Below, piece by piece: positions 2,561 to 31,100 of a stretch of DNA of 42,906 bases. A program made the position numbers and the translations under genes. The notes under the pieces were generated by a model. The model worked only from the letters and a program-made list of their open reading frames with translations, made no database searches and was not told the DNA's origin. Within the stretch, counting starts at the first letter, position 1. The number at the start of each line of letters is the position of its first letter. The stretch comes from a virus, in IMG/VR virus record IMGVR_UViG_3300020429_000723, positions 1-42,906 of that record; one strand, 5' to 3'.

Positions 2561-2927
2561 GCGCAGGGCCCTCCGTCAGGGCTGCGCCGCTAAGGCGCTG
2601 GACCGCATAGATGCAGGAATCCCGGTTCAGGACGGCCTGCGCATCGAAGCTGCCATCGGCATGCATCATGCCAAGCGTTCGCCCGAAAAACTCCTCCAGC
2701 AGGGGGATTAGGGCGGCGGGTACACGGATGTATTCCGCGACGGTCGCATTGGTCGGCAAGCCGTTTGCCTCCATCCGCATCATCGCTGCCTGCCGTAGCA
2801 GCCCAGCGGACCGCTCCAGCGCATCCGCAGCAAGCCCAATGGCGTTGCCGCTCATGTAGTCGTTTGCCATTTCATAGGCTGTTTGTGCGGCTTCCAGCTT
2901 CGCCTTGAACTTGTGCGATGCGCTCAT
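2553..2927 (-). CDS. Unknown helical protein
   Basis: A 124-residue protein starting at ATG 2927, coupled to the ParB-like gene by an ATGA overlap. It starts MSASHKFKAKLEAAQTAYEM and is mostly helical, with no transmembrane segment, nucleotide-binding motif or zinc ligands. No family is recognised. An upstream extension of the frame lies inside the ParB-like gene and is not needed. Tight packing between the ParB-like gene and a membrane protein indicates one transcription unit. Confidence 0.65.
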   Translation of the reverse strand: MSASHKFKAKLEAAQTAYEMANDYMSGNAIGLAADALERSAGLLRQAAMMRMEANGLPTNATVAEYIRVPAALIPLLEEFFGRTLGMMHADGSFDAQAVLNRDSCIYAVQRLSGAALTEGPARG

Positions 2928-4882
2928 GCGGCGTCCCCTTTCAGCTGGGCGTCTACCAGTGCGGCCATGTCTTCCTCTTTGAGGAAGCGGGCTTCCGGCG
3001 GGGTCCATGCCGTGTTGCGGTTCGCGGCGAGCCATGCGGCGAGGTCTGCCCGGTTCTTCGGTTTCTTGTTGTCTTCGGACACGCGCAAATTCGCTCCGCA
3101 GGGGCCGGTGATGGCTTCCAGCTGGGCGGTGGTGTAGCGGCTGAACCAGTCTTCATCCGCGATGGCGTCCATGTCCTGCAGGGCCGTGTCGAAGGCGTCA
3201 TCTTCGCTGCGGTTTGACTTGGCCCAATAGGCGATGGCGCGGGCTTCTGCCGTGCTGCCTGGGCCTGCCGCGTGGCGGTTGACCAGGTCCATGGTCTGGC
3301 TCGCAATCACTGTGGCGAAGCGGGCGGCAAGGTCTGCGGGCTCCAGCTCCATCAGGCCGGACACGGCCTTTTCCCGGTCGGCAATTTCATTGCCTTCGAA
3401 GCCGTCGACATCTGCGAACAGGTCGGAGGCAAGGCCGGGCAGGCCGCGCTCTACATCCTTCTGATCTGCAATCAGGTGCTGGCGGTGAAGGTTGAGCAGG
3501 GATTCGCTGTAGTCCCCATTCCGGCCGTGATCGCGCAGCGTGTTGACGATGACCAGCGCCATGGCCGCTTCCGGACTGGCGGAAATCAGCTTGCGGACGG
3601 TTTGCGTGCGGGCAACAGAACCGGCAATCCAGTTCTTCCGCGCATAAGGCTGAACCTCTGGGGCGTCCGATGCCTTCGCGGCGGACTTGGCCTTTTTAAC
3701 AGCATCGGCAGGCGCGCCTTCCGGAGCGACAAGCGCCAGAGCGACTTCGCCGGTATAGGTGGCAATCGCATATTCGATGTAACTGCCGTCCGGGACGCCT
3801 TGCGCCTGCGCCGCAGTGGGGCGGTCGCTGATCAGGCGGGGGCCGCGCTGGATACGCTCATACCAGCCTGCGGCTTTTTGCGGCGGCGTCTTCAGGCCCA
3901 GCGTCTCCGTCAGCTTCCTGGCGTGATCTTCGAGCCGTTCGCCCTGCAGCTTCAGGAAGGCGGCTTCATCATCGATCAAGGGGGCGTCGGTCTCCGGATC
4001 ATAGGAAACCTCGCCGCCTGCGGCCCGGTATTCCTCCACATCGAACAGGGCGTGTTCCATGCTGAGCGAACTGTCCCGCAGCCATTCGGCCAGCTCTGCC
4101 GGGTTCCGGATCGGGTCATACTCCATCGCTGAGAGGATCGCGGCCTGCGTCTTTGCGGGTTGGCGGGCAATGGCAATGGCCAGTTTCCGCGTGCCGATCC
4201 GGCCATCGCTCCACGCGGCCTTGACTTCCGGTGTCAGGCTTCGCGCGACCTGCAGGTAAAGCTGGACATTGCGGCGGGTCTCGCCGGTGCGCTCCGAAAT
4301 CAACAGGGTGGCGCTGCCGGCATCACCGGTCTCAGCTTCGCGCAGCGCGGCGAGCCTCGCATAGGCTTCGGCCTGTTCAAGCGGGTGAACCTCTTCCCGC
4401 TTTTCGTTTTCCATGATGGCCAGTTCCAGATGCTCGGCATCGTCAACCTCCATCACGCGCACCTGCACCGGCGCGTCCTTTGGCCAGCGTCCATCTGCCG
4501 CCAGCTTTGACATCGCCCGGAAGCGGCGTTCTCCGAAGATTACATGATAGCGCGGCGCCTTTTCGGACGCCTTCCGGACGCTGATGTTCTGAAGCTGTCC
4601 CTTGGCGGCGATTGACTCCGCCAGCTCGGCAATGCCTTCCTCACTGAAGGATTTGCGTGGGTTGAGCGGGGAGGGGGCAATGTCGCTGAGGGGCAGCATG
4701 GTGATCAGGTTTTGCTCGCGGCTGTTGCCAGCTGACGCTGGCGCCGCTGTGCCTGCGCCTTGCTTGTGATTGTCCTGCGCCTTCGCCTTGGCGGCGGGAC
4801 GCTTCGTGGCCGGTTTCTTCGGCGCGGCGGACTTTGCAGCGGGTTTGGCTGCGGCGGGTTTCTTTTGTGCTGCAGTGGCCAT
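2924..4882 (-). CDS. ParB-like nuclease/partition-domain protein
   Basis: A 652-residue protein. Residues 1-36 are an Ala/Lys/Pro-rich basic tail. Residues 39-58 are the in-frame palindromic element. Residues 62-175 form a ParB/RepB/Spo0J N-terminal domain, with NPRK (74-77), the GERRFRA nucleotide-binding motif (117-123) and ENEKREEVHPLEQA (158-171), followed by a helix-turn-helix region (SERTGETRRNVQLYL, then a second helix). The long C-terminal part is unassigned. Known relatives bind palindromic DNA and CTP in partition, or act as regulators and nucleases. No ParA is visible, so classical partition is doubtful. The start overlaps the upstream XRE stop as TAATG. Its targets may be the 15-bp palindromes annotated here (inference). 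Confidence 0.85.
   Translation of the reverse strand: MATAAQKKPAAAKPAAKSAAPKKPATKRPAAKAKAQDNHKQGAGTAAPASAGNSREQNLITMLPLSDIAPSPLNPRKSFSEEGIAELAESIAAKGQLQNISVRKASEKAPRYHVIFGERRFRAMSKLAADGRWPKDAPVQVRVMEVDDAEHLELAIMENEKREEVHPLEQAEAYARLAALREAETGDAGSATLLISERTGETRRNVQLYLQVARSLTPEVKAAWSDGRIGTRKLAIAIARQPAKTQAAILSAMEYDPIRNPAELAEWLRDSSLSMEHALFDVEEYRAAGGEVSYDPETDAPLIDDEAAFLKLQGERLEDHARKLTETLGLKTPPQKAAGWYERIQRGPRLISDRPTAAQAQGVPDGSYIEYAIATYTGEVALALVAPEGAPADAVKKAKSAAKASDAPEVQPYARKNWIAGSVARTQTVRKLISASPEAAMALVIVNTLRDHGRNGDYSESLLNLHRQHLIADQKDVERGLPGLASDLFADVDGFEGNEIADREKAVSGLMELEPADLAARFATVIASQTMDLVNRHAAGPGSTAEARAIAYWAKSNRSEDDAFDTALQDMDAIADEDWFSRYTTAQLEAITGPCGANLRVSEDNKKPKNRADLAAWLAANRNTAWTPPEARFLKEEDMAALVDAQLKGDAA
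4712..4767 (-). repeat. In-frame palindromic element, copy A (in ParB-like gene)
   Basis: Encodes KQGAGTAAPASAGNSREQ in the ParB-like protein. On the plus strand arm GCGGC (4718-4722) pairs with GCCGC (4743-4747), and GCCAGC (4727-4732) pairs with GCTGGC (4737-4742) around a TGAC loop, with a 4-base bulge TGTT (4723-4726). Over 53 bp (4713-4765) it differs from copy B at one base, which lies in the loop. Confidence 0.85.
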
Positions 4883-5436
4883 TATGCGTGCGCCTCCGTG
4901 CCTGCCGGAATGGCTTTTGCGGGGATCGGTGGATCTTGAAGGTTTCTTGGCAGGTTGCAGTCTTCCGGCTGGCTGGCGCGCCGCCGCGGACCGGTGAGGC
5001 GGGTGCCGACTTTGACCAGATCTTCCATCTGGCGGAAAAGATCGCCTGCGATCAGGAAGCGGGAATCCGCGATGTCTTCCTGTGTCGCGGCATCGTCGAA
5101 GAAGTCCAGGACGGACACGCGCAAGGCATCGGCTGCCTGCTTCAGCATGCCGGCACTGATCCGGTTTGACCCGGTTTCATATTTCTGGAGCTGCTGATGG
5201 CTGATGCCGAGGGTTTCGCCCAGCTCGGCCAGCGTAAGGTTCCGGTCCAGCCGGAAGCGGCGCAGGTTTTCCCCTACCTGCAGGTCAATCGCGTTTGGGG
5301 CGCGGGAGGTCTTTGAATTGCTCGGGGCGTTTTTGATCTGCTCGCGGCTGTTGCCAGCTGCCGCTGGCGCCGCTGTGCCTGCGCCTTGCTTGGGGTGCCC
5401 CTGTGCCTGCGCTGCGCTTGTGGTCTGCTTTGCCAT
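4882..5436 (-). CDS. XRE-family HTH regulator carrying the palindromic element
   Basis: A 184-residue protein. ATG 5436 is preferred over ATG 5445 because the Shine-Dalgarno AGGAAGGG is about 9 bases upstream of 5436 but abuts 5445. Residues 14-33 are the in-frame palindromic element. Residues 52-112 form a Cro/CI-type HTH: LRRFRLDRNLTLAELGETLG, ISHQQLQKYETGSNRIS, LKQAADALRVSVLDFF. This layout (late turn IS, C-terminal DFF) is the usual SinR/HipB-like alphaproteobacterial form. It heads the leftward operon to the ParB-like gene and integrase and likely controls it by binding the upstream repeats. It has no self-cleavage domain. Confidence 0.88.
   Translation of the reverse strand: MAKQTTSAAQAQGHPKQGAGTAAPAAAGNSREQIKNAPSNSKTSRAPNAIDLQVGENLRRFRLDRNLTLAELGETLGISHQQLQKYETGSNRISAGMLKQAADALRVSVLDFFDDAATQEDIADSRFLIAGDLFRQMEDLVKVGTRLTGPRRRASQPEDCNLPRNLQDPPIPAKAIPAGTEAHA
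5338..5394 (-). repeat. In-frame palindromic element, copy B (in XRE gene)
   Basis: Encodes KQGAGTAAPAAAGNSREQ near the N-terminus of the XRE regulator. On the plus strand GCGGC (5344-5348) pairs with GCCGC (5369-5373), and GCCAGC (5353-5358) pairs with GCTGGC (5363-5368), with loop TGCC and bulge TGTT. It is nearly identical to copy A in the neighbouring gene. Confidence 0.85.
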
Positions 5437-5524
5437 TGTTCTCATCCCTTCCTGAATGCCCCTCCCACCTGTCTGAAGACGCGTGAGGCCGCTTCCGGGA
5501 AGGGGGTCTGAGTGGCGGCCTCAC

Positions 5525-5539
5525 GCGAACCGGGTTCGC
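5525..5539. repeat. 15-bp palindrome GCGAACCGGGTTCGC, site 1
   Basis: A perfect palindrome apart from its central base, in the 5' leader of the leftward XRE/ParB-like operon. CGG follows directly, matching the flank of sites 2 and 3 when oriented the same way. It is a candidate operator or ParB-type binding site. Confidence 0.75.
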
Positions 5540-5559
5540 CGGTCGGTGGGAAAAGTGCA

Positions 5560-5650
5560 TGAAATGTAGTTTTGTGGCAAGACAAAAAATACACCAAATG
5601 TACTATCGTACTAATTGAACGCGCTAAAGCTGCACCAAATGATTCGTTTC
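5560..5650. promoter_or_regulatory. Control region of the leftward XRE/ParB-like operon
   Basis: An AT-rich island in otherwise GC-rich DNA, between the divergently spaced operon start (5436) and the exonuclease gene. It holds CCAAATGTAC (5594-5603) and CCAAATGATT (5635-5644), repeats of a motif also seen in the CI/Cro gap at 7071-7099. GTAC-GATA-GTAC lies at 5600-5611. No textbook -35/-10 pair stands out. The leftward promoter must lie here because no other gap precedes the operon. Confidence 0.5.
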
Positions 5651-5741
5651 CGCGTGCGGAAGGCCAGGCAATGTCCGGCTAAGCCAGCACCGCGGATGCA
5701 GGAATGTCGGGTTGGTTTTTCGGGGAAGACTTATGAGGCCA

Positions 5742-6596
5742 CTATTCGGCGGTGCAGATGTGCATGAAGTCGGCTTCACCGAGGATGCGGAGCGGCAGGC
5801 CCGCCTTTATCAGGTCTTCCGCCTTGCGGTGCTTGCTGCTCTTCTTGTGGCCTGCGAGCCTGTCAATATCCTGATCACCCACAATCAGAAGGGTTGTTTT
5901 CTTGGTGACGTTCGGTTCCACAGCGGCGCCGGCGGCATGCGCCATATCGGCCGCGTCACGGCGAGCAACCTGTAGCGCGCCTGTAAACACGACACGTTCA
6001 CCAACTAGAGGGCCATCCCCATCGCCTTCGCGCCGAAGATTGGCGCCTGCGCCTGGCGGGTTCTTGCGGGTGGAAAGTGTAAGCCACTCTTCCGGACTGT
6101 GCCCGGAATCCTCGATAGCGCGGAGCAGGACTATCCCGGCTGTCCGGGCATCCTCTACGGCGTCGTGATGGCGGAAATCAATGTCAAAGTGGTTCGCCAG
6201 ACTGGCAAGGCCGAAACCGGTCTTCGAGAATTGCGGCCAAGCCCTGCGTGCAACGCGTGCCGTGTCCAGCCACCTGCAGGACAGGAGCGGGAGGCCGGAC
6301 AGAGTGCAGGATTGCGATATGGCGGTCCGGTCAAAATGGGTGTGGCAGGCGACGATCTGGTCCTGAGTTTGCGAGGTAAGCCACCCATGAAGCGCGGCAA
6401 AAGAAGGTGCGCCAAGGACGCGATCTTCGTCAATGCCATGAATGGCCATATTGTAAGGGTCAAAATAATCCTGCGGATCCACGTAGCGGGATTCCGCACT
6501 GGTCTCACGGCCATTCTCGAAAGTGACCATCCCGATCTGGCAGATGCTGGACATGCGCGGATTGGCGATTTCGACGTCGATCGAAACGAATTTCAA
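5742..6596 (-). CDS. DEDDh 3'-5' exonuclease with C-terminal BRCT domain
   Basis: A 284-residue protein. The start is TTG 6596, because the first exonuclease motif begins at residue 3 (FVSIDVE) and AAGGGGG lies 7-8 bases upstream. DnaQ-type catalytic residues are D7 and E9 (motif I), D89 in HTHFDRTA (motif II), and H144 with D149 in HHDAVEDARTAG (motif III). About 195-284 is a BRCT domain (GERVVFTGAL, AHAAGAAVEPNVTKKTTLLIVGD). The arrangement matches bacterial epsilon-like exonucleases fused to BRCT. It could edit or degrade DNA ends. It sits alone between two regulators, facing left, which looks like a lysogeny-expressed accessory gene, though that is inference. Confidence 0.92.
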   Translation of the reverse strand: MKFVSIDVEIANPRMSSICQIGMVTFENGRETSAESRYVDPQDYFDPYNMAIHGIDEDRVLGAPSFAALHGWLTSQTQDQIVACHTHFDRTAISQSCTLSGLPLLSCRWLDTARVARRAWPQFSKTGFGLASLANHFDIDFRHHDAVEDARTAGIVLLRAIEDSGHSPEEWLTLSTRKNPPGAGANLRREGDGDGPLVGERVVFTGALQVARRDAADMAHAAGAAVEPNVTKKTTLLIVGDQDIDRLAGHKKSSKHRKAEDLIKAGLPLRILGEADFMHICTAE

Positions 6597-6629
6597 GATT
6601 GCCCCCTTAACGCCCGGATACGTTACAGA

Positions 6630-6980
6630 TTATTCTGCCGCCACGTCCGGCGGGCTTTCCTGAAGGACTTCCATCTGGCCAAGGAAGAGCTTGCGGTGGA
6701 CGGGGTTGGCCCTGATGAAGGCAATGAGGTCGCGTTCCTCATCCGTCAGACCATCGCCGCCATCAATAAACTCGGATGGCGGCACCTTCAGGATCTCTGA
6801 CAGCCTCAGGAGTTGCTTGACGCTGACATCCACCAGGCCGCGCTCCCACCGCCCGATGCTGGGAGGTGAGATGCCCATCGCTTCGGCCAGTTCTTCCTGG
6901 GTCAGGCCCGCGCGCAAGCGCGCCTCGCGAATTCGGAGGCGGTCGTGTGCATCATCCTTTGAGTAGGGTCCGCGAGCCAT
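6630..6980 (-). CDS. CI-like XRE repressor
   Basis: A 116-residue protein from ATG 6980 (MARGPYSKDD). ATG 6995 is also possible; neither has a clear Shine-Dalgarno, so leaderless translation is plausible. HTH at residues 15-70: LRIREARLRAGLTQEELAEAMG, then ISPPSIGRWERGLVDVS and LLRLSEILKVPPSEF. There is no LexA/CI peptidase domain, so induction by RecA-stimulated self-cleavage is unlikely. It is divergent from the Cro-like gene at 7115, the classic lysis-lysogeny switch layout. Confidence 0.88.
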   Translation of the reverse strand: MARGPYSKDDAHDRLRIREARLRAGLTQEELAEAMGISPPSIGRWERGLVDVSVKQLLRLSEILKVPPSEFIDGGDGLTDEERDLIAFIRANPVHRKLFLGQMEVLQESPPDVAAE

Positions 6981-6995
6981 AACGCATTTTGCCAT

Positions 6996-7114
6996 TCTGG
7001 CCGGACCGGCGACAGAAAGCTGAATGCACGTTTCGCGCATGATGTATTGCGGGAACTGGCGAATCACCGGTACCAAATAAACATCTAATGTACTTTTGGG
7101 AACGGTATTCGCCT
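6996..7114. promoter_or_regulatory. CI/Cro divergent control region
   Basis: A 119-bp gap between divergent regulators. It holds CCAAATAAAC (7073-7082) and, on the other strand, CCAAAAGTAC (7099-7090), both close to CCAAATGTAC at 5594. TTGCGG (7047-7052) with an 18-base spacer to TACCAA (7071-7076) could be a weak rightward promoter overlapping the first operator copy. The operator reading is based on repeat and position. Confidence 0.5.
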
Positions 7115-7411
7115 ATGACGCGTTTAGAAGCCTTCAGGCAGGCCAAAAATTGGACATATGAACAGCTGGGCGAGCGTCTGGGCCGCACCGGTGTGCAGTG
7201 CCAGCGGTACTGCAAAGCCGTGAGCCAGCCGCGCCCGCCAGTGGCCGAACAGATCCGGGCATTGAGCCATGGCGTGATCCATCTGGGCAATTATGCCGAA
7301 CCGGTCAGTGACGATCAGGCGTCTGCCATGATGGCGGAGATTGAGCGGCTGGCGGCAGCGGCATCACAAGCGACCGCGCCGGGCAAATCCAAAAAGGCGG
7401 CGTCCGCATGA
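7115..7411 (+). CDS. Cro-like regulator
   Basis: A 98-residue protein. ATG 7115 (MTRLEAFRQAKNWTYEQLGE) is preferred over ATG 7088, which would start inside the putative operator. The HTH covers residues 1-45: WTYEQLGERLGRTG, then VQCQRYCKAVSQPRPP, a short Cro-type HTH, followed by IRALSHGVIHLGNYAEP and an Ala/Lys-rich tail. It is the first gene of the rightward early operon, opposite the CI-like repressor, and overlaps the next gene as ATGA. Confidence 0.82.
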   Translation: MTRLEAFRQAKNWTYEQLGERLGRTGVQCQRYCKAVSQPRPPVAEQIRALSHGVIHLGNYAEPVSDDQASAMMAEIERLAAAASQATAPGKSKKAASA

Positions 7412-7776
7412 GCGCGTTGCTGGTGATCGGGGCCGCGCTGGCGGCGGGCGGGGGCGGGTTTGCCGCGGGCTGGATTGTGGCCCGCGGCAGGCAGGCGCCT
7501 AGTGGGGACGTGTGCGTGAACGGCCGCTGGCTGGTGTGGCAGCCTCCGCCCGCAAGGCCGCAACAGCGGACTCCATCAGGGAATATGCCAGCTGGCGGGC
7601 CTGTTCCGGGAGCAGGCGAAACTGAGCGGGCGGCGTTGGTGCGTTGGTTCGAAGCTGCGATGGCCCTTCACCCGCCCCAGGAAGGCTGGGAGCTGTTTCC
7701 AGTGTCCCGTCCAGCCGTAGCAGGAGGGTTCCGCCTGCTGTGGCGCGGCAGACGTGATCGCGGAGGTCGAACATGA
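7408..7776 (+). CDS. Small protein with N-terminal membrane anchor
   Basis: A 122-residue frame coupled to cro by ATGA. Residues 3-26 are a Gly/Ala-rich membrane helix ending in a positive ARGR. The segment DVCVNGRWLVWQPPP is protein-like, whereas the rest is Pro/Gly/Arg-rich and overlaps a leftward frame (7499-7852) that reads at least as well. The N-terminal 50 residues look real; the C-terminal part may be spurious or shared coding. No family is recognised. Confidence 0.45.
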   Translation: MSALLVIGAALAAGGGGFAAGWIVARGRQAPSGDVCVNGRWLVWQPPPARPQQRTPSGNMPAGGPVPGAGETERAALVRWFEAAMALHPPQEGWELFPVSRPAVAGGFRLLWRGRRDRGGRT

Positions 7777-7852
7777 TCGGCATCCTGTTCTCGTCAACCC
7801 GCCATCCGTCAATCAATTCCGTTTCCGGCCCGTGGGAGTGTTTCTTACGCAA
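7499..7852 (-). CDS. Possible antisense gene, unknown protein
   Basis: A 117-residue leftward frame inside the rightward early region. It starts at TTG 7852, or at an internal ATG after DENR. It reads DGWRVDENRMPIMFDLRDHV, then GGTLLLRLDGTLE, and later FRLLPEQARQLAYSLMESAVAALRAEA, which has the composition and helix pattern of a real protein. It overlaps the 3' part of the 7408 gene for 278 bp. No family is recognised. If it is real, the two genes are convergent and overlapping; ribosome profiling or conservation would decide. Confidence 0.4.
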   Translation of the reverse strand: MRKKHSHGPETELIDGWRVDENRMPIMFDLRDHVCRATAGGTLLLRLDGTLETAPSLPGAGEGPSQLRTNAPTPPAQFRLLPEQARQLAYSLMESAVAALRAEAATPASGRSRTRPH

Positions 7853-7919
7853 TGGGAAATTCCTTGTTGAAAGTGCTGTACCCTTCCCAAAGGCAGCCTT
7901 TCATGAGTCGGAAACGGGC

Positions 7920-7954
7920 GCACGCCCCATGGACTGGATCCCCATGGGGCGTGC
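7920..7954. other. Strong 13-bp hairpin between early genes
   Basis: Arms GCACGCCCCATGG (7920-7932) and CCATGGGGCGTGC (7942-7954) are perfectly complementary around a 9-base loop. Only TTT follows on the plus strand, so it is not a canonical intrinsic terminator. It lies in the gap 7853-7972, just upstream of the gene at 7973 and of the start of the antisense frame. It could be a terminator, an RNA processing site or a protein-binding site. Confidence 0.5.
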
Positions 7955-7972
7955 TTTCGGGGGTGCGGCCTG

Positions 7973-8179
7973 ATGTTGTGGCTGGGCATCTTCGGCATCC
8001 TCTATCTCGCCTATTGCGCGATCGGGGGCATTGTCAGCATCAGCGCGTGGGAGCGGCGGACGTTTGAAGATCCAAGCATCGATCCTCAGGATGCGGTGAG
8101 CGCGGCCCTGATGGAAGGCGCCTTCTGGCCCGCTGAGGCGTGGCGGACTTACCGGGGCAGGGAGGCGGGCGATGTCTGA
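7973..8179 (+). CDS. Small one-TM membrane protein
   Basis: A 68-residue protein with a membrane segment at residues 2-23 (LWLGIFGILYLAYCAIGGIVSI). The soluble tail contains SIDPQDAVSAALMEGAFWPAEAWR. It overlaps the next gene by 8 bp. No family is recognised. Similar one-TM proteins with a tail containing FWP are frequent among phage early genes. The function is unknown. Confidence 0.65.
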   Translation: MLWLGIFGILYLAYCAIGGIVSISAWERRTFEDPSIDPQDAVSAALMEGAFWPAEAWRTYRGREAGDV

Positions 8180-8432
8180 TCCGGCGGACCGCTACTGTTC
8201 CGACTGCGCGTGGCCGTATGAGTGCGCTGCCGAACGGTCCTGCCATCGCCGGGACATGGGCGAGGTGCGGGGGGAGGATCTGGCGCGATCATCTGACTGC
8301 TCGCCGCTGTCATCCGGGGCGCGCTGCGCTCGCCCGGATGCGGCTGCGCCTGCGCGGTCGCTTGTGGAGGGCGACAAGCATGCGCGGTACAGACAGCAGA
8401 TGCGCGGCCGTGCGGCGGGGTCGGGGTTATGA
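8172..8432 (+). CDS. Small Cys-rich protein
   Basis: An 86-residue protein overlapping both neighbours. The N-terminus has cysteines at YCSDCAWPYECAAERSCHRRD (C9, C12, C18, C24, with H25 also available), a possible small metal site. The C-terminal half is low in secondary-structure signal and Arg/Ala-rich. The downstream methyltransferase starts at ATG 8429 as ATGA. No family is recognised. Confidence 0.5.
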   Translation: MSDPADRYCSDCAWPYECAAERSCHRRDMGEVRGEDLARSSDCSPLSSGARCARPDAAAPARSLVEGDKHARYRQQMRGRAAGSGL

Positions 8433-9079
8433 CCGCGCCGCATGATCCGGCCCCGGAAGATGCCGAATTGCATGAGACGCCGGAAGAGGCCGTCTTTGCG
8501 TTGATCGAAGCGGATGCCTTCCTGCAGCAGCGCCGCCAGATCTGGGAACCGGCCTGCGGTCCAGGCCAGCTTGTCGACGCGCTGCAGAAGGCGGGGCATA
8601 CCGTCTGGGCGTCGGATGTCTACAAGTATGAGGGGCGCTGGGCGGCGCATCCGGACACGACACGGCACTGGAAAAAGGACTTCCTTGATCCGAACACGCA
8701 TCGCCTGAAGTGCGGTGCCGAAGCCATCGTCATGAATCCGCCTTTCAGTCAGGCCGATGCCTTCATCACCTGCGCCCTGGGGCTGGTGCCGCGCGTCTAT
8801 GCGCTGTTGCCGCTTGGCTGGATGCAGGGCGGGGCCGGGACAGGCCTGCGCGATCATCTTCTGGACGGGCCGGAATACTGGCGCCGCTGCTACCCCTTCC
8901 GGGAACGCCTGCCCATGATGCATCGGGACGGCTGGTCCGGCCGGGTCGCGCGGTCAAAGCACAAACATGCATGGTTCGTGTTCGGAAAGCCCAAAGGGCG
9001 CGACGAACAGGCTGCCCAGCGTATCGGCACCCCAATCACAACCCGCATCAGTATCGAAGCGATCGGAAAGGAAGGCTGA
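8429..9079 (+). CDS. Phage DNA adenine methyltransferase-like protein
   Basis: A 216-residue protein. Residues 39-62 contain the S-adenosylmethionine-binding motif WEPACGPGQL followed by a DVY acidic end, and residues 102-106 have the catalytic MNPPF motif, which indicates an N6-adenine (or N4-cytosine) methyltransferase. It is short and has no recognisable target-recognition domain, like many phage solitary methyltransferases. No partner restriction enzyme is nearby. It would modify phage or host DNA during early expression. It is followed after 3 bp by the ASCH protein. Confidence 0.85.
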   Translation: MTAPHDPAPEDAELHETPEEAVFALIEADAFLQQRRQIWEPACGPGQLVDALQKAGHTVWASDVYKYEGRWAAHPDTTRHWKKDFLDPNTHRLKCGAEAIVMNPPFSQADAFITCALGLVPRVYALLPLGWMQGGAGTGLRDHLLDGPEYWRRCYPFRERLPMMHRDGWSGRVARSKHKHAWFVFGKPKGRDEQAAQRIGTPITTRISIEAIGKEG

Positions 9080-9082
9080 GCC

Positions 9083-9760
9083 ATGGCGGACGGACGCACC
9101 TATCACGCGCTGGAATTTGAGCCCGGCAGATCGGACCCTGACAAGAAATGGGCCTTGTCGGTGAAGCAGCCGCTGGCTGGACTTGTCGCAATGGGGACAA
9201 CGCCCCTGATCACGAAATCCCTTCCGCCGCCGGCGGAGCTGGTCGGCAAGCGGATCGCCCTTCACGCGGGTGCGGGGCATGTGCCGTACAAGGAATTCAG
9301 CGAAGACGCTGCCGAGTGGGCCCACAAGAAATGGGGCGCCAGCCTTTCGGAGCTTCGCCAAATGCTGCCGCATGGCGGTGTGATCGCGACGGTGAAGCTG
9401 GAAGCGGCCTACAAAATCGGGCGGGCCATGCATCGCAAGATCTATGCGGCGCCGCCGAACCGGTATGGTTCCAGCTACAAGGGGCCGTGGCATCCCTATG
9501 ACGGGGCCTATTTCTTCGAACAGGGGACGGGTTTTGCCGGGCGTTGGGCGTGGGCGCTGACGGAACCGAAGCTGTGCCCGGATTTCGTGCCGCTTCGCGG
9601 ACATGGCGGGATCTTTGACCTGGTGGGCGCCATGGACCTTGAAGCGCAGCGGGTGGCGGATGAAGCCGCGCACGGCCACAAGCAAGGCGCAGGCGCAGCC
9701 GCGCCGGGGCAGGGCCCCGGCAATAGCGGCGAGCAATCCAAAAACGAGGATGCAGCGTGA
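9083..9760 (+). CDS. ASCH (PUA-like) domain protein with C-terminal palindromic element
   Basis: A 225-residue protein. The opening WALSVKQPLAGLVAMGTT, then LVGKRIALHAG (residues 54-64) and VIATVKLEAAY, are the hallmarks of ASCH-domain proteins, which are PUA-related and thought to bind RNA or modified nucleotides. A YFFEQGTGFAGRWAWAL segment follows. Residues from about 199 on carry the KQGAGAAAP...GNSGEQ element. The domain itself ends before it, so the element sits in a disordered tail. It lies between a methyltransferase and a GcrA-like gene and overlaps the latter (GTGA). Confidence 0.8.
   Translation: MADGRTYHALEFEPGRSDPDKKWALSVKQPLAGLVAMGTTPLITKSLPPPAELVGKRIALHAGAGHVPYKEFSEDAAEWAHKKWGASLSELRQMLPHGGVIATVKLEAAYKIGRAMHRKIYAAPPNRYGSSYKGPWHPYDGAYFFEQGTGFAGRWAWALTEPKLCPDFVPLRGHGGIFDLVGAMDLEAQRVADEAAHGHKQGAGAAAPGQGPGNSGEQSKNEDAA
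9679..9735 (+). repeat. In-frame palindromic element, copy C (in ASCH gene)
   Basis: Diverged third copy. Outer arms GCCGC (9698-9702) and GCGGC (9726-9730) pair; inner arms GCCGGGG (9703-9709) and CCCCGGC (9715-9721) pair; the bulge AATA (9722-9725) sits where the coding strand of copies A/B has AACA. Both stems are kept although both arms changed, and the flanks CAAGCAAGGCGCAGGC and GAGCAA are shared. Confidence 0.8.
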
Positions 9761-28163: not shown

Positions 28164-31100
28164 AGACAATGTCCAGGCGCTTGTCGCTGAACTGTCCCTC
28201 AATTCAAAGCGGATCGAACGGCAGCAAAACCGGCTGTTGAAAAAGTTCGATACGACTTTCAACAGTATTGAGAAGACAGGCCGAAAGCGCCTGGCCAATG
28301 TCGAGCGGCGCGCGGAAGAGATGTCCCGCAATGTGCGGCGTGCCATCGCCGCGATCGCGCTGGGGATCGCCGGGCGCGAAGTGACCAGCTACGCGGATGC
28401 GTGGACGGACCTGAACAACAAGGTGAAGGCGGCGGGCGAAGTGTCCGGCATCCAGGGCCGGGCCATGAAAGAGCTGGCAGCCGATGCCCGCGCGACCCGA
28501 TCCGAAATTGAGCCTTATGTAGATCTCTATTCCCGCATCCTGCGCGCTGGCAAGGGCGTTGCGGAGAGTGAGGCGGAGGTGGCTCGCGTCACGCAGATCA
28601 CGGCCAAGGCGTTTGCCGCAGGTGGCGCTTCTGCGAGCGAACAGGCCGCTGGCGTCCTGCAGCTGGGGCAGGCCCTTGGGTCCGGCTTCCTGCAGGGGGA
28701 TGAATTGCGGTCCCTGCGTGAAAACGCGCCGCTTGTCGCCAAGGCCGTTGCCGACGCCATGGGCGTGTCCATCGGCGGGCTGAAGGAACTTGGCGCGCAG
28801 GGCAAGATCACGTCCGATGTGGTGTTTAAAGCCCTTCTGGATGCTGAAGATGTCATCGATCGGGCGTTTTCCGTCACCACGCCGCGCGCGTCCATGGAAG
28901 CCGTTCTGGCTTTCGATAATCTGAAGCTGAAAGTCGGTGAATACCTTGTCGAAGGCGGGCAGGTAGCGGCTGTTTCGTCTGCCGCTGCCGGGGCAATCAA
29001 TTTCGTGGCTGACAATCTGGACGCCCTGTCCGATGCAATCATTGTAGGCAGTGCTGCCCTGGCTGGTTTCTTCGGCGCGCAGGGGCTGATGGCAGTCGCG
29101 TCTGGCCTCAACAGCGTGGCTGTGGGGGCAACGGCAGGGGCGAAGGCGCTTGCGCTGCTGCGGGCAGCAGGCGCGTTCCTGACGGGGCCTGTCGGCATTG
29201 CGATCGGTGCGGCAGCGGTGGCCAGCGGCATCGCCCTGATCGCGCTGGGCATGGGCGATGTGACGGAAAAGTCCAAGACCGCAGAGGAATCCATCCTCGC
29301 CGTGACGGACGCGCTGGGCAAGTATGGCGAAGTCAATGCCACGATCGGGCGCGATCTCGATACGCTGAAGGGCCTGCAGGATGACCTGACCAAGGCCATC
29401 GCCGATCAAGAGCCGGTTATCGAGGCAACCAAGCGGGCGGATATTGCCGCGCTCGAAGAAAGGATCGCGAAAAACCGTGAGCTGGCAGGCGTCTATGAGG
29501 CACTGGCGCGCGCGGAGCTGGCCAACGCAAAGGAAAAGCAAGGGGTCATCGGACGTGATGAGGCCTATGACCTGATCGGTAACGGTGCCTTCAATGTCGA
29601 AGAGGTTCCGCAGGCGGGCGCGCGCCTCCGGCTGAAAACGCAGTCTGAGCTGAATGACCTTCTGAAGGAAGAGTATGACCGCATCAGGGACATACAGGGT
29701 GCGGATGGAAAGGGAAGTGTTTCCGCCCGTGAAACCCGGGTGCTGGACTATTATTCCAAGCGGCTCGCGCAGGCCGCAAAGGTGGCGGAACTGGAAGAGC
29801 GTGTCGCGGCCCTCCAGGCGGCGGGCACAGGGAAGCCGGGGGGCACTGACACCGGCGATTCCGGCGGCACAGACGGTAAAGAGACGTCCAAGGCGGACGG
29901 CGCCGCCATCAAGGCTCTGGAAGATGCGTGGAAAAAGCTCTTCATGACAAAGCGCCAGCTGGCTGAGGATACCTATCAGGCTGAGCTGGAAAATATCGCC
30001 AAACTGGGGGTTGAGCAGTCCAAGAAGGATGCGCTGGCCCAGAAGGCGCTGGAGATCCGCGACAAGACGCTCTCGGACATCGCTTCAGAAGAGCGGGCGA
30101 CGGCTTCGGAGGCGGACCAGGCGGTCATCGATGACATCGGTGATGCATGGAACAATGCCTTCCAGACAAAGCGGCAGGCTGCGGAGCAGGCCTATCAGGA
30201 TGAGCTGGCGGACATCGAAAAGCTGAGCGTTGCCCAGTCCAAAAAGGATGAGCTGGCCCAGAAGGCGCTGGAGGTGCGTGACGACAAGATTGCGCAGATC
30301 GCCCGCGATGAACAGGAAGGCATCGCTGCGCTTCTGGACGCCCGTGATGAGGCTGCGGGTAATGAGATTGCGATCATCAACCGCCGGGCCAAATTGGCCA
30401 AGGAGGCGGCTGAGCGCGAAACGGAAGATGCAGAAACGCTCCGCACCAAGCTGGCATTGATCGAAGAGCAACGCCTGACGGATATTCAGGCCGTGAACGA
30501 CAAGGAAGCGGCTGAGCGGCAGCGGCTGATCGATGACGTTCTGGCCGCGCGCGAGAATGCGCTTGGGGATTATGAATCCCTCGCCAATCGCGAATATGAG
30601 GCGCTGGTCGCCAAGATCGACAAAGAGATCACGGCAGAACAAGGCAAGTATGAAATCCTTGCGGCGCTGGAAGAGGCTCACCTTGAGACGGTAAAAGGCA
30701 TCCGTGAGCGGATGGCAGAGGATCGTCTCAATGAGGCCCTGCAGGAAGCCGATACGGTCGGGGAAGGGTTCCGGGCCCAGTGGGCCATCATGCGCGAAGA
30801 AACAGAGAAGGCCGCTGGCGACATCGGCATCCTGTTTGCGGATACATTCGGGCCGGGCGGATCGGTCCAGGAGGCTATCGGACAGGCCGCCGGGCGGGCC
30901 ATCGCATTCGGGGACGACTTTGGCGAGAGCATTGAAAATGCCGCGCGGTCGATTGCTTCCGACCTGATCGGGGCGCTGGTCCAGTACGGAGTTCAGATGG
31001 TTGCCCAAGCGGCGTTGGGTCAATCGGTGGCTGCAGCAACAACTGCCGCCACTGTCGCTGAAGCTCAGGCCGCTGCAGCGGCGTGGGCGCCTGCAGCGGC

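Follow-up and report, generated by a model that had tools for sequence, protein, structure and literature searches.

The window analysed here, 42,906 bases in length, is the complete IMG/VR virus record IMGVR_UViG_3300020429_000723, and at least four of its genes carry copies of a palindromic element that we call HPE1 for convenience. HPE1 is likely to be a non-autonomous, short mobile palindromic DNA element, of about 60 bp, that belongs to the Hyphomonas family and its phages. Comparison of viral and bacterial sequences reveals its dispersal, its presence or absence at individual sites, the conservation of its fold, its independence of reading frame and its carriage by phage, and its mobility appears well supported. 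A preliminary description of this DNA had proposed an unrecognised mobile coding palindrome resembling the Rickettsia palindromic elements (RPEs); dispersal throughout the family, in-frame host insertions, empty-site orthologues and frame independence all support that proposal. As far as the searched literature goes, the family is previously undescribed: papers that mention Hyphomonas or Hyphomonadaceae alongside palindromic or intragenic repeats contained no description of it (subscription papers and preprints lay outside the scope of the search).

Copies of HPE1 in a tailed phage

The PHROGs matches in the window (large terminase, portal, major head protein, head-tail adaptor, tape measure, tail fibre and endolysin) are those of a tailed phage, whose replication module includes a sliding clamp and an O-like protein. 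To avoid circularity, we built the covariance model R2 solely from bacterial copies of HPE1 and searched the window without filters. The search recovered the three copies known from the preliminary description (A, B and C), in the genes where it had placed them, and also a fourth copy (D) and truncated 5' arms upstream of A and B, which it had not mentioned. Scores below are from R2 and, where given, from covariance model R1.

4712..4769 (-): copy A; R2 74.4 bits, E 4.6e-22; R1 77.8 bits
Parts of copy A: 5' arm 4769-4748; outer stem 4747-4743 with 4722-4718; inner stem 4742-4737 with 4732-4727; bulge AACA 4726-4723; 3' end GAGCAA 4717-4712
4770..4797 (-): probable truncated 5' arm, directly 5' of copy A; R2 12.6 bits, E 0.013
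5338..5395 (-): copy B; R2 63.9 bits, E 9.8e-19
5396..5423 (-): truncated HPE1 5' arm, directly 5' of copy B; R2 14.8 bits, E 0.0027 (window)
8297..8367 (-): copy D; R2 39.7 bits, E 3.9e-11; R1 44 bits
9676..9736 (+): copy C; R2 69.1 bits, E 2.2e-20
Parts of copy C: outer stem 9698-9702 with 9726-9730; inner hairpin 9703-9721; bulge AATA 9722-9725; GAGCAA 9731-9736

The E values of A, B and C place these copies far beyond chance, and the best R2 match in the window after the four copies and two truncated arms scores 11.6 bits. Tandem HPE1 copies occur in hosts as well. Copies A, B and C lie in the sense orientation and in frame: A in the N-terminal linker of its open reading frame (ORF), B close to the N-terminus and C in the C-terminal tail. 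Copy D is antisense within a small ORF whose frame stays open; it has a longer inner hairpin and is of the same subtype as a host copy (L199). The genes that carry the four copies are as follows.

2924..4882 (-): ParB-like protein, 652 aa, carries copy A; PF02195 ParB_N 4.6e-17; phrog_4715 2.3e-33
4882..5445 (-): XRE/Cro-CI HTH regulator, 187 aa, carries copy B; PF01381 1.9e-12
8172..8432 (+): small ORF, 86 aa, carries copy D antisense; from the ORF list
9083..9760 (+): 225-aa protein, carries copy C; phrog_3193, unknown function

Pfam and PHROGs bear out the ParB-like and XRE/HTH labels first given to two of these genes. The ASCH label given to the 225-aa protein did not hold: this protein has no Pfam match even at E 10, and phrog_3193 is its sole match. 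A Pfam search with ORF 8172-8432 gave no match; the stop codon of this ORF overlaps the start codon that follows (ATGA at 8429).

Copies A and B, which lie in adjacent genes at a distance of 626 bp, have a single difference over ∼54 nt, whereas copy C has other stems that nevertheless pair. The outer stem is GCGGC/GCCGC in A and B and GCCGC/GCGGC in C, the inner stem is GCCAGC/GCTGGC in A and B and GCCGGGGC/GCCCCGGC in C, and the bulge is AACA or AATA, all as first described.

Fold and compensatory variation

HPE1 is 58-72 nt long. After a conserved 22-nt 5' arm comes an outer helix of 5 bp, which encloses a hypervariable inner hairpin; the 3' side has a bulge of 4 nt, and the element ends in GAGCAA. 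In an alignment of 29 copies, the consensus of the 5' part is CCACRAGCAA-N-GCGMAGGCGCA, the inner hairpin has at least 6 bp, and the bulge (AACA, ATCA, AACC or AATA) is found exclusively on the 3' side. Of the pair cells in this alignment, 96.2% are canonical; 73 cells show double changes, compared with 23 after shuffling, and structures slid along the alignment pair at only 28-48%. A larger alignment, fitted to the covariance model, holds 141 copies, 138 of them distinct; the distinct copies have 92.6% of their pair cells paired, double changes in 421 cells (138 in shuffles) and a covariation score of 0.676 versus 0.156, while structures slid by 1-3 columns pair at 16-41%. The 141 copies contain 114 distinct inner hairpins between nearly invariant arms, and the bulge is exactly 4 nt long in 132 of them.

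Two structural variants were seen. In one subtype (L130, L132, L162 and others), the inner helix contains G-A/A-G mismatches, which account for 74 of the non-canonical cells and are consistent with tandem sheared G-A pairs. Some copies in the hosts L088, L122, L123, L130 and L140 are extended at the 3' side by GAGCAGCAAG-hairpin(GGA loop)-GCGCAGC, an extension not present in other HPE1 copies at the same site.

The preliminary description had argued from three copies that selection acts on the fold. This claim gains support from the compensatory variation, which is strong in alignments of 29 to 141 copies, with one qualification: template switching at palindromes, in which one arm is copied onto the other, could homogenise the arms and produce double changes without selection. 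Such joint correction predicts that single-side changes and G-U intermediates should be rare relative to double changes, as they are. It should also erase the one-sided bulge, and the retention of that bulge at 4 nt in nearly all copies speaks against template switching as the full explanation. Because the unpaired arms, too, are strongly conserved, and mutation by itself gives no account of new sites, we consider it very improbable that HPE1 is explained by template switching plus spread through ordinary recombination.

G-U pairs make up 1.9% of the canonical pairs of HPE1, compared with 14% in six tRNAs of the same loci, a small comparison in which the low value may partly reflect high GC. 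From these small numbers, the scarcity of G-U suggests pairing as DNA rather than RNA. A comparison of stable loops (GNA triloops versus GNRA) gave figures too noisy for telling DNA from RNA. Rfam gave no gathering match in the window and, in the host loci, only weak or unrelated matches at HPE1.

Dispersal, placement, and gain or loss

A pattern scan of genome contigs located a copy of HPE1 in Hyphomonas sp. 34-62-18 (L049). In the genus of this bacterium, the pattern search matched 32 of 42 genomes, and model R1 matched 38 of the 42 at E<=0.1, with at most 10 matches in each. Across the Hyphomonas family, 55 of 105 genomes are positive with R1 at E<=1e-5. Copy number is highest in the genus of G084, where seven genomes contain 6-44 copies each, G084 itself having 44. 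We also scanned the order (299 genomes) and the class (385 genomes), and every positive belongs to the Hyphomonas family, an absence elsewhere that is limited by sensitivity since these scans score few candidates per genome.

The exact two-arm pattern has no match in IMG/VR viral contigs because the inner hairpin varies, and the 3' motif alone gave 41 matches there, all due to chance except for one true relative (L045), whose ParB homologue carries HPE1 in its N-terminal linker. A blastn search of plasmids and phages with a 61-nt consensus gave short chance matches only, and no related loci were found in viral contigs searched with the 225-aa and ParB proteins. Some of the small IMG/VR contigs with HPE1 (e.g. 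L327, L331-L339) resemble host DNA, and phage carriage is not argued from them.

Orthologues with and without the insert, a comparison that had been proposed, exist in both phages and hosts. In phage ParB, the N-terminal linker contains HPE1 in the window and L045 and lacks it in L326/L335; conversely, the ParB_N loop between ISVR and YQIIYGEQRW contains HPE1 in L326/L335 and lacks it in the window and L045. At the era-recO junction (gene names from our reading of the translations), G085 has an empty allele with a stop/start overlap, TAATG, while G081, G083 and G087 have HPE1 plus a second palindrome, and G086 has a similar combination with order and orientation reversed. A possible 3-bp target-site duplication, TAC, is seen at this junction, in a single case. 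One conserved gene end carries an inverted pair in six species and a single copy in three, and the two subtypes stand in opposite order in different species. The preliminary description had named two outcomes that would count against it, homologues with the peptide but not the stems and an ordinary linker without empty-site orthologues; neither pattern was found.

Clean empty sites at serC-serA and thiC were considered and rejected, as other repeats or different loops sit there. In the serC-serA spacer of L226, L228-L231 and L234, a repeat CCTGTCATCCCGGACAGCCC..ATCCGGGACC stands where related species have HPE1. The thiC linker after the ThiC-associated domain (L248-L297) is an insertion hotspot with at least three unrelated in-frame repeats across species. 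Because different repeats occupy them in different species, we regard the serC-serA spacer and the ThiC linker as tolerant spots.

With a crude gene caller, 105 of the 141 copies are intergenic. Their surroundings are convergent (27), codirectional sense (23) or antisense (29), and HPE1 avoids divergent promoter regions (2 cases). Orthologous sites, and both copies of a pair, are counted here. Inverted pairs, arranged head to head, are common and occur at several sites. In another group of the family (L114, L115, L117, L118), HPE1 has a conserved place a few tens of bases before rpsP, the gene for ribosomal protein S16. Genomes with HPE1 also hold a second palindromic repeat, about GCCTTGAGCGCG..CATCGCG.., encoding a peptide like ALSATHREGEAEAGGQNK (L298:5285-5345; thiC linkers of L251, L262, L268 and L282; uvrC linkers of L186 and L187), which often adjoins HPE1 and is likewise in frame in thiC and uvrC.

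Intragenic copies are nearly all sense, and the clearly intragenic host copies are all sense. UvrC contains two or three in-frame copies in each of four species, and its stretch up to PDLVLIDGG, 122-196 aa long, is largely made of such elements; ThiC carries HPE1 in frame in the same linker in two species, and an Lhr-type DEXH helicase also has an in-frame copy. The frames in use differ: the window reads HKQGAG.., L045, L326 and the helicase read TSKAKAQ.., and ThiC reads TSDRAGAAAPASAGNSSEQ. Thus it is the DNA rather than the peptide that is conserved. Sense-frame peptides are polar (grand average of hydropathy, GRAVY, -1.2 to -1.7) and antisense peptides hydrophobic (+0.2 to +1.0), so that protein tolerance is enough to explain the intragenic sense bias. 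Selection for open frames was considered and rejected, since composition accounts for the openness: there are 4.80 open frames, compared with 4.63 and 5.01 in shuffles.

These placements bear on two other explanations. In the first, an ordinary linker peptide was repeated by intragenomic duplication in three phage genes, with the hairpin incidental; the near identity and adjacency of A and B fit this, and linkers are tolerant. But HPE1 DNA also lies between genes, is read in different frames, is antisense in copy D and has compensatory stems in well over 100 copies; the host copies refute duplication within the phage, and we give this explanation almost no weight. In the second, HPE1 is a structured RNA (a 5' or 3' untranslated-region element, mRNA stabiliser or protein-binding site) selected on the transcript, from which phage mRNA would benefit too. 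Strong covariation, the all-sense intragenic host copies and conserved positions in the serC-serA spacer, upstream of rpsP and before terminators are what such an RNA would give. It is nonetheless unlikely, although it is the alternative we take most seriously: intergenic orientation is balanced, inverted pairs are common, G-U pairs are nearly absent, no Rfam family matches, copy D is antisense, and peptide hydropathy already explains the sense bias within genes.

Elsewhere in the window, the tape measure gene contains a 193-nt tandem direct repeat (29891-30302; 73% identical, spacing 219). A DnaQ-like exonuclease is encoded at 5742-6596 (-); its C-terminal region matches DNA ligase families (possible BRCT), and it also matches the candidate defence model PDC-S48.

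Mobility, possible mechanism and relation to known elements

How might such an element move? A protein supplied in trans would recognise HPE1 as a folded hairpin, probably in single-stranded DNA during replication, repair or phage growth. The arms would provide the fixed recognition sequence, whereas the inner hairpin could change provided that it still pairs, and HPE1 would insert or be copied at new sites. Those insertions that preserve the frame would survive, chiefly in linkers and tails and chiefly in sense, because all three sense frames are polar and disorder-like while the antisense frames are hydrophobic. Phages would acquire HPE1 from one host and could pass it to another.

Several observations weigh against a mobile element. 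Movement was not observed directly. Searches for a transposase recurring beside HPE1 copies found none, and the REP-associated tyrosine transposase (RAYT; Y1_Tnp, PF01797) is present in just 9 of the 105 family genomes; G084, which has the most copies, lacks it. There is no certain target-site duplication, the 3-bp TAC being the sole candidate, and at serC-serA and in the ThiC linker some species have other repeats rather than clean empty sites. Double changes can also come from template-switch correction of imperfect palindromes, and the reservation made above about G-U pairs belongs here too. Finally, there is no sign that HPE1 is selected to be coding; its coding capacity follows base composition.

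Protein-coding palindromes have been described from the obligate intracellular bacteria Rickettsia and Wolbachia, reportedly by Ogata et al. in 2000 (RPEs) and in 2005 (Wolbachia). Like these palindromes, HPE1 is both intergenic and in frame within unrelated, conserved genes, and it is dispersed and lineage-restricted, with more than one family per genome (PMC2229807, PMC10969869). RPEs are palindromes of 105-150 bp that encode a conserved peptide and lie in frame in Rickettsia genes (PMC2229807, PMC10969869). HPE1 is likewise in frame in copies A, B and C of the window, in host uvrC, thiC and the Lhr-type helicase, and in phage ParB. Unlike RPEs, it is only 58-72 nt long and has neither a conserved peptide nor a fixed frame; it has a two-helix fold with a one-sided bulge, a long unpaired arm and inverted pairs; and it is found in the free-living, high-GC Hyphomonas family, with several copies on a tailed phage. 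Since it differs in size and lacks the conserved peptide, HPE1 is best read as an RPE analogue, a separate, shorter and phage-carried family set apart by these features, not as a member.

Other repeat classes share fewer of its features. HPE1 resembles repetitive extragenic palindromes (REPs) and their doublets (REPINs), which are moved by RAYTs, in being a short, imperfect, family-restricted palindrome with head-to-head doublets and gene-end locations. However, its arms, CCACRAGCAA..GAGCAA in 141 copies, do not form a 20-40 nt palindrome with a GTAG or CGTC tag (definition from PMC3733652), its genomes mostly lack RAYT and hold many fewer copies, and it lies in frame in conserved genes; that HPE1 is a RAYT-moved REP thus seems highly unlikely. 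The CcrM-associated intergenic repeats (CIRs) of Caulobacter are also alphaproteobacterial repeats with hairpins, but they are not intragenic and have stops in all frames (PMC2229807), whereas HPE1 is intragenic and usually open. Miniature inverted-repeat transposable elements (MITEs; Correia/NEMIS, ERIC) are similarly non-autonomous and dispersed, with some in-frame ORF fusions, but HPE1 lacks terminal inverted repeats (its ends, CRAGCAA and GAGCAA, are direct, not inverted, in 141 copies), has no confirmed target-site duplication (one possible TAC was seen), and has no parental insertion sequence that we could find.

A broader proposal, which we offer tentatively, is that free-living alphaproteobacteria and their phages share an independent system of mobile coding palindromes. 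In such a system, an undescribed trans-acting enzyme would move hairpins as folded single-stranded DNA, several families (HPE1 and at least one more) would build linkers such as the 122-196 aa UvrC region, and phages would act as carriers. To our knowledge, the movement of the protein-coding palindromes of Rickettsia and Wolbachia has never been explained. The RPE-like phenomenon now extends to free-living, culturable bacteria and to phages, where the copy number, defined fold and empty-site alleles of HPE1 make its mechanism testable, and where short palindromes add disordered linkers to conserved proteins such as UvrC.

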